Positions 47,406 to 50,895 of a stretch of 64,000 nt of DNA are shown piece after piece. The stretch's first letter is position 1. Each line of letters opens with the position of its first letter. The position numbers and the translations under genes are program-made. This DNA comes from Pseudoalteromonas espejiana DSM 9414 (GTDB lineage: Bacteria; Pseudomonadota; Gammaproteobacteria; Enterobacterales; Alteromonadaceae). The stretch spans positions 2,119,001 to 2,183,000 of the forward strand of contig NZ_CP011028.1 in assembly GCF_002221525.1 (NCBI RefSeq). Reading direction: 5' to 3'. Under the pieces are notes generated by a model that saw nothing but the letters and a program-made list of their open reading frames with translations, did no database searches and was not told the DNA's origin.

Positions 47406-48026
47406 TTACTCAAATGGGCTGGTATCGCCACAGCCTACACGCAGTATTTGTATGTCATCTTCAGACAAATCAATAACGGTTGTTGCTTGCTCTGCCAAGT
47501 GGCCGCCATCAATAATTAAGTCAACGTGTTTATCTAAGCGTTCTAAAATTTCATCCGGGTCTGATTCTGTAAACTCTTCACCAGGTAAAATAAGTGAGCA
47601 CGACATAAGTGGCTCACCAAGCGCTGCTAACAATGCACACGCAGTGGGATGTTCTATAACACGCATACCAATGGTTTTTTTCTTATCGTTTAATAAACGC
47701 TTTGGTACCTCTTTAGTGCCTTTAAAAATAAAGGTATAAGGCCCTGGCGTATTATTTTTAATAAGCCTAAACATTTGGTTATCTACACGTGCGTACGTTG
47801 CAAGCTCAGATAAATCGCGGCAAACAAGGGTAAAGTTATGGTGTTTTTCTATACCACGAATGCGCTCAATGCGCTCTTTAGCTTGTTTGTTACCTAAGTT
47901 ACAGCCTATTGCATAACCTGAATCTGTTGGGTAAACCACAACCCCACCTTGTTTAATAATATCAACTGCTTGGTTAATCAGTCGTGGTTGTGGATTATCA
48001 GGGTGAATATGAATTAATTGGCTCAT
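47406..48026 (-). CDS. yciO: YciO, Sua5/YrdC-family protein
   Basis: The start at 48026 (MSQLIHIHPDNPQPRLI) matches the E. coli YciO N-terminus and has AGGAGC about 10 bp before it, giving 206 residues; the ORF is open to 48074. VVVYPTDSGYAIGC, FTLVCRDLSELATYA and PGPYTFIFKGTKEVP are Sua5/YrdC-type segments. TsaC/Sua5 make threonylcarbamoyl-AMP for tRNA modification, and YciO is the divergent paralogue. Its start overlaps the rnm stop as ATGA. Confidence 0.9.
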   Translation of the reverse strand: MSQLIHIHPDNPQPRLINQAVDIIKQGGVVVYPTDSGYAIGCNLGNKQAKERIERIRGIEKHHNFTLVCRDLSELATYARVDNQMFRLIKNNTPGPYTFIFKGTKEVPKRLLNDKKKTIGMRVIEHPTACALLAALGEPLMSCSLILPGEEFTESDPDEILERLDKHVDLIIDGGHLAEQATTVIDLSEDDIQILRVGCGDTSPFE

Positions 48027-48877
48027 GTTAATGCTCCTTCTTGCCCTTCCCATAATTGCCAAACACCTTGGCAATCTTTTGGTAAGTATAAGTTTTTACC
48101 TAGCTCTAAATAACTAGTTGGAAAATGAAAGTCTGAACCTTGTGAGCACAATAGCTCGTACTCTCGGCTTAATTGGCCTAAAAATTGGCGCTCTGTTGGG
48201 GCCTGTTGCGGTTGCGCAACTTCCATTGCATCGCCCCCTACGCTTTTGTATTCAACTAACAATTTGCGTAACCACTTATTAGACATTTGATACCGCCCCG
48301 GATGGGCCAGTACTGCAACACCACCAGCAGCATGTATCGCCTCTATCGCGGTTTGCATATTGCACCAACTACTTGGTACATAGCCTGTTTTGCTGCGCCC
48401 TAGGTATTTTTTAAATACCCCGGGAAAGTTTTTAGCGACGCCTCGCTCTATTAATGCACGTGCAAAATGAGCACGGGTTATTTGCGCGTTTTCAGCAAGG
48501 GCTTTGGCTTGTTCGTAAATGCCGTCAAAGCCATTTTTTGCAAGTCGTTTACCAATTTCTATGGCTCTTTCGTCTCGCTTTTGCTGCTGCGACGATAACA
48601 ACGATGTAAGGGCATTGTTATTAATATCAATGTTTAAGCCTACAATATGTATTTCAAAGCTTTCCCACTTGGTAGAAATTTCAACCCCAGAAATTAGCTC
48701 AAGTGGTAAGTTTTCTGATTTGATAAGCGCTCGAGCATCTTCAATGGCTGCCACAGTATCGTGATCGGTTATAGCAAACACATCAATATTTTTTTCTACT
48801 GCGCGGTGTAATAATTGCTCAACCGTTAAATGCCCGTCTGAATGCGTTGTATGACTATGTAAATCGTATTTTATCAA
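48023..48877 (-). CDS. rnm: RNase AM (YciV), PHP-domain 5'-3' exonuclease
   Basis: The 284-residue PHP-domain protein starts YDLHSHTTHSDGHLTVEQLL and has FAITDHDTVAAI near 35, GVEISTKWE near 64, VAVLAHPGRYQMS near 192 and CSQGSDFHFP near 250, all metal ligands in order. YciV/Rnm trims 5' ends of rRNAs and acts on short nucleic acids. It heads the rnm-yciO-scpA operon and is divergent from trp, as in many gammaproteobacteria. Confidence 0.9.
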   Translation of the reverse strand: MIKYDLHSHTTHSDGHLTVEQLLHRAVEKNIDVFAITDHDTVAAIEDARALIKSENLPLELISGVEISTKWESFEIHIVGLNIDINNNALTSLLSSQQQKRDERAIEIGKRLAKNGFDGIYEQAKALAENAQITRAHFARALIERGVAKNFPGVFKKYLGRSKTGYVPSSWCNMQTAIEAIHAAGGVAVLAHPGRYQMSNKWLRKLLVEYKSVGGDAMEVAQPQQAPTERQFLGQLSREYELLCSQGSDFHFPTSYLELGKNLYLPKDCQGVWQLWEGQEGALT

Positions 48878-48959: not shown

Positions 48960-48989
48960 TTGACACAAAAGCGCTAAATACGTTTTACT
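48960..48989 (+). promoter_or_regulatory. Candidate trp operon promoter
   Basis: TTGACA at 48960-48965 is a perfect -35 and TTTACT at 48984-48989 a fair -10 with 18-bp spacing. Transcription would begin near 48996, about 30 bp before the first leader peptide. No TrpR operator of the E. coli type was seen. Confidence 0.6.
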
Positions 48990-49024
48990 GTAGCCACTTT
49001 CAGACACATTAAGAATTAATAAAA

Positions 49025-49069
49025 ATGATCAATTCAATTCAACACACTATTTGGTGGTGGCACTCATAA
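49025..49069 (+). CDS. trpL: trp leader peptide 1 (three Trp codons)
   Basis: A 14-codon ORF reads MINSIQHTIWWWHS followed by TAA. Three consecutive TGG codons sit near its end, as in known trp leader peptides, and an intrinsic terminator lies 39 bp after the stop. Ribosome stalling at the Trp codons would favour an antiterminator, for which GGGT and GAAT (49076-49086) can pair with ATTC and ACCC (about 49103-49113). The ribosome-binding site is weak (TAAGAA). Confidence 0.85.
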   Translation: MINSIQHTIWWWHS

Positions 49070-49107
49070 TTTTTGGGTGATGAATTGTCGTGTCTAGCAA
49101 ATATTCA

Positions 49108-49133
49108 AAACCCGCAACTATGCGGGTTTTTTT
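49108..49133 (+). terminator. trp attenuator 1
   Basis: AAACCCGCA, a 4-nt loop and TGCGGGTTT are followed by a T-run. It is the terminator partner of leader peptide 1. Confidence 0.88.
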
Positions 49134-49180
49134 ATAACTAAATTTTACGTATTTAATTTTATTTTTTGAGGCAAAAAAAC

Positions 49181-49231
49181 ATGAATAACGGTCTTACTCT
49201 TACACATCGTTGGTGGTGGCGCCTGATATAG
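49181..49231 (+). CDS. trp leader peptide 2 (three Trp codons)
   Basis: A 16-codon ORF reads MNNGLTLTHRWWWRLI followed by TAG. Again three TGG codons stand together. A good GAGG ribosome-binding site lies 9 bp before the ATG. It starts 48 bp after the first attenuator's T-run. GCGGG just after its end (about 49231-49235) can pair with CCCGC of the following terminator. GGTAATGAT (about 49238-49246) can pair with ATCGTTATT (49264-49272) with some G-U pairs, a clear antiterminator. Apart from WWW the peptide is unlike leader 1. Confidence 0.88.
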   Translation: MNNGLTLTHRWWWRLI

Positions 49232-49274
49232 CGGGACGGTAATGATCTGTTTGTAATTTAGATATCGTTATTCT

Positions 49275-49313
49275 AACCCCGCATTGCAAAAGCATTGCGG
49301 GGTTTTATTTTTT
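49275..49313 (+). terminator. trp attenuator 2
   Basis: AACCCCGCA pairs with TGCGGGGTT, with an inner TGC-AAAA-GCA, and a TTTTATTTTTT tail follows. It ends 13 bp before trpE and is the terminator partner of leader peptide 2. Confidence 0.9.
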
Positions 49314-49326
49314 GAGGGAATGAGGT

Positions 49327-50895
49327 TTGATTTTTAGTCATATAACTACCACACCAGGCGAAGTGACCAGTATTACACAAGTTCGCGACTACATAAGTAG
49401 TCCACTTGCACTGTATGGTGCACTTAATAAGCCTAATTCACTACTGCTTGAGTCGGCCGAAATTGATTCTAAAGACAGTGTTAAAAGTTTAATTTTAGTC
49501 GATTGTGCTTTGCGCATTGTATGCCAAGGTAAAAACGTAACGGTAACTGCTCAATCTAATAATGGTAAGCAGCTACTCCCATACTTAAAAGCCAATGTAC
49601 AAAGCTGTGAAGCAACACTTAGCGATACAACATTATCACTTGTGTATAATACCGATGCTACTGATATAGATGAAGCCAGTAAGCTTGTAGCCGATAACGC
49701 ATTTAGTGCCTTACGTACATGTATAAACAGTATTAAAAGCACCACCGAAAACCCATTTTCGGTATTTTTAGGCGGTGTATTTGCTTACGACATGGTCGCT
49801 AACTTTGAGCAATTAAGTGATGTACCCGATGGCGAAAACACCTGCCCAGATTACGTATTTTACCTAGCCGAAACCTTAGTAGTTATTGATCATCAAAAAC
49901 AAACCACTGAGCTTATTGGTAATGTATTTAATGGCCCAGACGTACATGCAAATTGCTTTGAAGTAGGTAAAGAGCTTGAACGCTTAAATAGCCTTTGCGA
50001 CAGCGCAGCAGAATTTAGCGCCCCAATGCAAACAGGCAAGTGCGATGTAAACGTTGATATAAGCGATGAAAGCTACTGCGAACAAGTAGTAAAACTTAAA
50101 AAGAATATTGTAGATGGCGATATTTTTCAGGTGGTGCCTTCGCGTACTTTTTCATTGCCCTGCCCTGACTCATTACACGCTTACAGCCAACTTAAAAAGC
50201 AAAACCCAAGCCCATACATGTTTTACATGCGCGACGAAGAGTTTGCTTTATTTGGTGCATCTCCTGAGTCGGCGCTTAAGTACGATGTAACTAATCAACA
50301 AGTTGAAGTGTATCCAATTGCAGGTACCCGAGCTCGCGGTAAGTTTGCAAACGGACAAATAAACCCAGACTTAGACAGCCGTATTGAGCTTGAACTAAGA
50401 AACGATCAAAAAGAACGTGCTGAGCATTTAATGTTGGTAGATTTAGCGCGTAACGACGTAGCCCGTATAAGTGTGGCTGGTACTCGCCATGCCAAAGAGC
50501 TTTTAAAAGTAGACCGCTATTCACAAGTAATGCATTTAGTGTCGCGCGTGGTAGGTACTTTAAAACCAGAACTTGACGCCTTGCATGCTTATCAGGCCTG
50601 TATGAACATGGGCACACTTGTTGGTGCACCTAAAGTACGTGCTGCAGAGCTTGTTCGTCAAACCGAAGGCAAACGCCGTGGTAGCTACGGTGGCGCTGTA
50701 GGTTATTTAACGGGTGATGGTGCAATGGATAGCTGTATTGTTATTCGCTCTGCGTTTGTAAAAAACAATACAGCCTATGTGCAAGCCGGTGCCGGTGTGG
50801 TATTTGATTCAGACCCTCAATCAGAAGCAAACGAAACCCGCGCCAAAGCACAAGCGGTTATTACCGCCATTAAATCGACTTATGAGGCGGTATAA
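49327..50895 (+). CDS. trpE: Anthranilate synthase component I
   Basis: The 522-residue protein has the chorismate-binding signatures IVDGDIFQVVPSRTFSLP near 262, YPIAGTRARGKF near 330, HLMLVDLARNDVARIS near 365, and the late GSYGGAVGYLTGDGAMDSCI. It makes anthranilate from chorismate with TrpG. The N-terminal LLLESA segment, the usual Trp feedback site, is present near 38. The start is TTG at 49327, with GAGGG 8 bp before it; the ATG at 49320 runs into a stop after five codons. A weak start may add to control by the two attenuators. Confidence 0.93.
   Translation: MIFSHITTTPGEVTSITQVRDYISSPLALYGALNKPNSLLLESAEIDSKDSVKSLILVDCALRIVCQGKNVTVTAQSNNGKQLLPYLKANVQSCEATLSDTTLSLVYNTDATDIDEASKLVADNAFSALRTCINSIKSTTENPFSVFLGGVFAYDMVANFEQLSDVPDGENTCPDYVFYLAETLVVIDHQKQTTELIGNVFNGPDVHANCFEVGKELERLNSLCDSAAEFSAPMQTGKCDVNVDISDESYCEQVVKLKKNIVDGDIFQVVPSRTFSLPCPDSLHAYSQLKKQNPSPYMFYMRDEEFALFGASPESALKYDVTNQQVEVYPIAGTRARGKFANGQINPDLDSRIELELRNDQKERAEHLMLVDLARNDVARISVAGTRHAKELLKVDRYSQVMHLVSRVVGTLKPELDALHAYQACMNMGTLVGAPKVRAAELVRQTEGKRRGSYGGAVGYLTGDGAMDSCIVIRSAFVKNNTAYVQAGAGVVFDSDPQSEANETRAKAQAVITAIKSTYEAV

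Follow-up and report, generated by a model that had tools for sequence, protein, structure and literature searches.

It is highly probable that the trp operon of Pseudoalteromonas espejiana DSM 9414 is governed by serial ribosome-mediated attenuation, with two tryptophan (Trp) attenuator units on one transcript ahead of trpE, and the two-attenuator arrangement seems to be kept across nearly the whole genus Pseudoalteromonas. The anatomy of the units, their alternative pairings, one conserved sigma-70-type promoter and the conservation of these parts were read here from sequence, both in the window (the whole stretch of DNA analyzed, 64,000 nucleotides) and in the corresponding loci of relatives. 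The parts of the locus are listed below.

48023-48877, minus strand: gene for RNase Rnm, the divergent neighbour on the other flank of the leader region
48960..48989, plus strand: sigma-70-type promoter conserved in the genus, -35 TTGACA at 48960-48965, 18-nt spacer, -10 TTTACT at 48984-48989
49025..49069, plus strand: leader ORF 1, MINSIQHTIWWWHS and stop, ATG at 49025 to TAA at 49069, Trp codons at 49052-49060, no Shine-Dalgarno site
49061..49079, plus strand: unit 1 protector hairpin (1:2), CACTCA at 49061-49066 with TGGGTG at 49074-49079, based on pair conservation
49074..49114, plus strand: unit 1 antiterminator (2:3), TGGGT at 49074-49078 with ACCCG at 49110-49114 plus TGAAT at 49081-49085 with ATTCA at 49103-49107, based on fold and conservation
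49107..49133, plus strand: terminator 1 (3:4), stem 49107-49130, T run to 49133, based on fold and conservation
49181..49231, plus strand: leader ORF 2, MNNGLTLTHRWWWRLI and stop, ATG at 49181 to TAG at 49231, Trp codons at 49211-49219, Shine-Dalgarno GAGG upstream
49231..49282, plus strand: unit 2 antiterminator (2:3), GCGGG at 49231-49235 with CCCGC at 49278-49282 plus GGTAATGAT at 49238-49246 with ATCGTTATT at 49264-49272, based on fold and conservation
49275..49313, plus strand: terminator 2 (3:4), stem 49275-49304, T-rich tail, based on fold
49327..50895, plus strand: trpE with a TTG start (TIGR00565, 708 bits), first gene of trpE-trpG-trpD-trpCF-trpB-trpA, the rest of which match other Trp families

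The original prediction had described a pair of short ORFs with three Trp codons in a row apiece, each followed by its own hairpin and T run, and had interpreted them as serial attenuators; the observation is confirmed by the window sequence, the folds and the genus counts given below, and the interpretation is supported. Across the 64 kb window, the triple-Trp sequence TGGTGGTGG has just two occurrences, 49052 and 49211, each on the plus strand. Transcription would start near 48996. Leader 1 has no ATG, GTG or TTG start other than ATG 49025, given the in-frame stop at 49010-49012. The unit 1 protector lies directly 3' of the Trp codons of this leader. A simple promoter and terminator scan called neither terminator, nor the promoter at 48960-48989; it missed the latter because its rule accepts a -10 box only with A in the second place, where TTTACT has T.

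Both terminators are far more stable than expected by chance, at -14.2 kcal/mol (z -4.8) for terminator 1 and -21.1 kcal/mol (z -6.0) for terminator 2, with none of 200 dinucleotide shuffles as stable in either case. When the 3' terminator arm is withheld, each antiterminator is the minimum-energy fold, that of unit 2 with the pairing originally drawn (-15.5 kcal/mol) and that of unit 1, as anticipated, weaker (-10.5 kcal/mol). Neither antiterminator stands out against shuffles when the window sequence is taken alone (z -1.4 and -1.0; 14 and 30 of 200 shuffles as stable), and the support for both comes from conservation, not from the window fold. The Rfam Trp_leader model (RF00513) matched both units end to end, with 34.1 bits (E 3e-5) for unit 1 and 24.2 bits (E 0.012) for unit 2, neither of which reaches the gathering score of 41; at gathering level no Rfam family, T-box included, was matched in the whole window. 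With a Trp-codon ORF, a terminator and a mutually exclusive antiterminator in each, both units appear to fit the ribosome-mediated trp attenuator of the trpL type.

For the genus as a whole, DNA upstream of trpE was taken from 108 of 108 species genomes (30 loci, including that of the P. espejiana genome itself, plus 78 stretches), and TrpE was found in every one of them. Two Trp leaders precede trpE in 105 genomes and a single leader in the remaining 3. Conservation of leader 1 and its hairpin had been named beforehand as a check that could overturn the prediction; WWW in leader 1 and terminator 1, as called by a strict finder, are each present in 108/108 genomes. Leader 1 varies from 14 to 21 codons and comprises 43 different peptides, all the while keeping its frame open and its WWW invariant. 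Leader 2 comprises 51 different peptides and has at least three consecutive Trp in 100 of the 105 genomes, two in 4, and W-G-W in 1, namely Pseudoalteromonas lipolytica CGMCC 1.8499 (L029 / L035). The aligned start codon of trpE (n = 108) is TTG in 90, GTG in 13 and ATG in 4, with no start codon at the partial match in G061; the trpE of that genome (G061:C2:1770224-1771683) matches in two pieces with internal stops and is broken or mis-assembled. A third ORF with two neighbouring Trp, 586-667 nt upstream in ten genomes, was dropped as unrelated.

The strict finder called terminator 2 in 55/105 genomes, and all 15 of the 15 viewed by eye among the 50 missed cases have a GC stem, bulged or with a long loop, followed by a T run; under a looser rule, arms were located for both terminators in every one of the 105 two-leader genomes. 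One locus (L135) carries ~265 extra nt between terminator 2 and trpE, an insertion whose long arms pair with each other. When the 3' arm is left out of the fold, the 5' arm of the terminator pairs upstream in 52/59 unique sequences for unit 1 and 54/59 for unit 2. Compared with dinucleotide-shuffled upstream bodies, the antiterminator of unit 1 has a mean z of -2.4 and lies below all 60 shuffles in 17/59 sequences, and that of unit 2 has a mean z of -1.09 and does so in 1/59. The evidence for the unit 2 antiterminator, weakly above shuffles across the genus, is therefore weaker than that for unit 1. Of the six pairs in the unit 1 protector, five were counted, each kept in 56 to 59 of the 59 unique sequences, and one pair changes on both sides (GC 51, AU 4, UA 3; n = 59). 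RNAalifold, run on a plain MAFFT alignment, recovered two elements of unit 1, its protector and its terminator, and for unit 2 just three protector pairs, with neither antiterminator nor terminator 2 among the structures recovered.

A single promoter appears to feed both units, as had been predicted. The TTGACA-18-TTTACT promoter is the best match in 92/105 genus members, with a close variant in the other 13, and its -35 and -10 boxes form the strongest conserved block upstream of leader 1 in an alignment of 103 unique sequences (after collapsing one duplicate and omitting a long sequence that has an insertion). In the same alignment the stretch from terminator 1 to leader 2 shows no conservation. 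A promoter in this interval, which would make the units independent, was the other finding that could have counted against the prediction, and no conserved or above-chance sigma-70-type promoter is present there: sigma-70-type scores of at least 9 occur upstream of leader 1 in 101/105 genomes, in the inter-unit interval in 2/105, and in shuffled intervals in 40/525. A second sigma-70 promoter between the units was rejected on these grounds. The interval is A+T-rich and may hide a weak or non-sigma-70 promoter that feeds unit 2 alone, so that each transcript would meet one attenuator, but the interval is unconserved and its sigma-70-like sites are no commoner than in shuffles, which makes this arrangement very improbable.

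Under serial attenuation, a single promoter would give rise to one leader RNA carrying two complete ribosome-mediated Trp attenuators, in each of which a ribosome would translate a short peptide with three Trp codons. When Trp-tRNA is plentiful, the ribosome would clear the Trp codons and the terminator would form; when it is scarce, the ribosome would stall, strand 2 would become available to strand 3, and RNA polymerase would continue. The polymerase would have to pass both units to reach trpE, and read-through would accordingly be about the product of the two, with logarithmic sensitivities adding. We infer translation of the leaders, their response to Trp, the independence of the units, multiplied read-through and the steepness of the response, the last of which would result if the serial switches act independently.

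The two checkpoints may be unequal, because leader 1, in a feature that the original prediction overlooked, is without a Shine-Dalgarno site in 100/105 genomes. Its mean anti-SD duplex energy (-0.73 kcal/mol) is that of other ATGs (-0.68 kcal/mol; 372 background ATGs from the upstream stretches of 40 genomes), compared with -4.38 kcal/mol for leader 2 and -6.4 kcal/mol for trpE, and it reaches -4 kcal/mol or lower in 5/105 genomes; in the window the values are -1.4 kcal/mol for leader 1 and -5.6 kcal/mol for leader 2. A missing Shine-Dalgarno site does not exclude initiation, although leader 1 may be poorly translated for this reason, and the checkpoints may differ in strength or in other signals sensed. 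Taken further, the background-level anti-SD energy of leader 1 could mean that unit 1 is mainly a Trp-insensitive brake, in which a rarely translated leader lets the 1:2 and 3:4 hairpins form (superattenuation) and unit 2 alone senses Trp. We think this unlikely, since WWW is invariant in leader 1 (108/108) while leader 2 is the more variable (5/105 with fewer than three Trp consecutively), and since an ORF that is not read offers no explanation for the conservation of its open frame and of antiterminator 1. Two Trp-sensing units, possibly of unequal strength, are the preferred reading.

The likely gain from two such units is low basal expression in the absence of a Trp repressor. None of 395 genomes of the wider family has a match to TrpR (PF01371) that passes the cut-off; weak matches below it occur in 27/395 genomes, none of them in Pseudoalteromonas, and the E. 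coli and B. subtilis controls were positive. The listing of this survey names 20 Pseudoalteromonas genomes, and the draw of the same size used for the peptide-pattern search described below holds 32. With no TrpR over the cut-off, attenuation may be the sole Trp-specific control. According to a published model, the E. coli trp attenuator has a basal read-through of 10-15% since TrpR adds ~70-fold control, and the attenuation-only his operon is supposed to need a lower one (PMC1183508). By our own arithmetic from that 10-15%, basal read-through would come to about 1-2% with two trp-like units in series. Absence of TrpR as the cause of a double instead of a single attenuator was rejected: many one-leader relatives are without TrpR too, with 0/395 passing. 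Doubling is one solution among others in lineages without TrpR.

On the evidence of four further genes, tandem leaders as a general habit of this genome were rejected. One candidate leader each (L334, L335, L337, L338) was found in the same genome before hisG (MRLNLTTVHHHHHSPE), leuA (a Leu run) and two acetolactate synthase genes, within 500 nt of these four genes; for one of the four, no terminator was found. Two terminators would release two small RNAs, and the trp leader peptide peTrpL of Sinorhizobium meliloti is reported to act in trans (PMC7298713), so that two copies might be kept for an action of terminated leader RNAs or peptides on other genes. Outside the Trp run, however, the peptides diverge between species (43 and 51 different ones), which does not suggest a conserved trans activity, and we give this explanation hardly any credence.

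The original prediction had called the two leaders unrelated, which is right for the peptides as they now stand in the window and probably wrong for their origin. In four deep-branching species (L185-L188), whose TrpE is 69-70% identical to the query, both peptides include WWWHS and the stretches after WWW are near copies in the two units, aligning far above shuffles. Alignment of unit with unit in one of them (L186) scores 35, compared with a maximum of 17.5 in 200 shuffles, and the first 20 bases are identical; in the window the score is 14.5, the shuffle maximum is 16.5, and the likeness is gone. The units thus probably arose by an old duplication, though common function also constrains their sequences.

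In a midpoint-rooted TrpE tree of 80 named sequences, two of the four near-copy species (L072, L073) branch first within the genus. The one-leader strain NBT06-2 (L067) branches next, inside the two-leader genus, on a long branch that makes its placement uncertain. P. lipolytica (L035) was scored as one-leader in the tree tally solely because its leader 2 reads WGW. The loci L176, L179 and L180 (the last being NBT06-2) have one Trp leader followed by two back-to-back terminators, and the retention of both terminators without leader 2 points to its loss, which we regard as probable in these three.

Relatives outside the genus were represented by 70 loci from all 51 other genera of the family and by 40 loci from 13 other families of the order. 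The family loci comprise 42 with one leader, 5 with two leaders, 13 with a leader and a further ORF whose peptide contains WFIWW, 7 with no more than the WFIWW ORF inside the stretch, and 3 with none. Leader pairs in which a terminator-like hairpin follows each member were seen in genus g29 (L197; Algicola L078 is similar) and in a member of g45 (L194; Rheinheimera mesophila L098); these double units were judged from folds, the strict finder having seen one of the two terminators. Among the loci of other families, 28 have one leader, 5 a leader and a WRW ORF, and 7 none (one upstream ORF, in L262, was discounted). The WRW ORF, short and containing Trp-Arg-Trp, is the second one, after the trp attenuator and before trpE (L232, L233, L269, L242 and L243, in families f12 and f11), and no terminator was found after it in these five loci.

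The WFIWW ORF encodes a peptide of 18-20 aa ending in WF(I/L)WWL(L/Q)P(I/L)YAG and the stop, and lies after a trp attenuator and upstream of trp genes (L304-L333; L219, L223, L225, L226, L274, L276, L277, L285-L287, L291, L293, L301). The pattern WF(I/L)WWL.P.YAG, defined once the peptide was known from nine genera, has one match each in 82/395 genomes from 18/52 genera, with none in 32 Pseudoalteromonas genomes, and a reversed control pattern never matched. A Trp leader and terminator stand upstream in all 30 of the 82 pattern loci that were read (3 genera). From the stop of the ORF to the start of the following long ORF there are 30-39 nt in 29/30 loci, the exception being L322, where the script picked an earlier ATG. 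In seven loci (L206, L216, L221, L222, L278, L282, L289) the WFIWW ORF lies ~1.1 kb before the TrpE match, perhaps with a further gene ahead of trpE in these operons. Synonymous codon differences within the ORF suggest that selection acts on the peptide itself, which is a candidate for a Trp-sensing or arrest peptide or for a translational checkpoint.

A tentative reading of these distributions, to which we assign slightly less than even chances, is that bacteria of this family, which gave no TrpR above the cut-off, regained tight control of trp by placing Trp checkpoints one after another on a single leader RNA. Pseudoalteromonas would have doubled the attenuator, some Rheinheimera and Algicola would likewise have two, and a sister group of genera would have added, after a single attenuator, the strongly conserved second Trp-rich peptide WF(I/L)WWL(L/Q)P(I/L)YAG, which in the loci read ends ~35 nt before the long ORF taken as trpE and could work at the level of translation. 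On this reading a second checkpoint arose several times, in more than one form.

Attenuation of trp is the textbook RNA switch, and the usual account joins a single hairpin race to TrpR. A lineage apparently without TrpR and with two serial hairpin races makes it testable how low basal expression and high sensitivity can come from attenuation alone. The genus offers a natural two-stage system, and species with one leader and two terminators, or with fewer Trp codons in leader 2, are ready-made variants of it.

No prior report of two serial leader-peptide attenuators for one amino acid was found in searches of open-licence PMC papers. Tandem riboswitches, such as those for glycine (PMC3766115) and that of metE in Bacillus clausii (PMC3641672), also place two RNA switches before one operon. 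Unlike the units described here, tandem riboswitches and T-boxes sense a ligand or tRNA directly, without a leader peptide. Tandem trp T-boxes occur in Gram-positive bacteria. The rimP leader of some Gammaproteobacteria resembles the trp leader in its tandem terminators, the upstream one with a potential antiterminator, and differs in that its description, as far as available, includes no amino-acid leader peptide (PMC2965389). In the Salmonella mgtCBR leader, two short leader ORFs likewise share one leader RNA; they are reported to respond additively to two different signals, ATP and proline-charged tRNA, without intrinsic-type terminators (PMC3641672), whereas here the same amino acid appears to be addressed twice, both ORFs having Trp codon runs, and two intrinsic-type terminators are present. 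The three cis RNAs listed beside trpE of Shewanella piezotolerans, not described as attenuators in the text available (PMC5471319), could be an unrecognised parallel. The trpL leader of E. coli and Salmonella shares with the present units a short Trp-codon ORF, a protector, an antiterminator and an intrinsic terminator before trpE. It differs in that leader 1 here is without a Shine-Dalgarno site and in that E. coli has TrpR, for which the genomes of this family gave no match above the cut-off. The RF00513 model describes one such unit, and both units here match it below gathering; where E. coli and Salmonella have one, Pseudoalteromonas has two in series.
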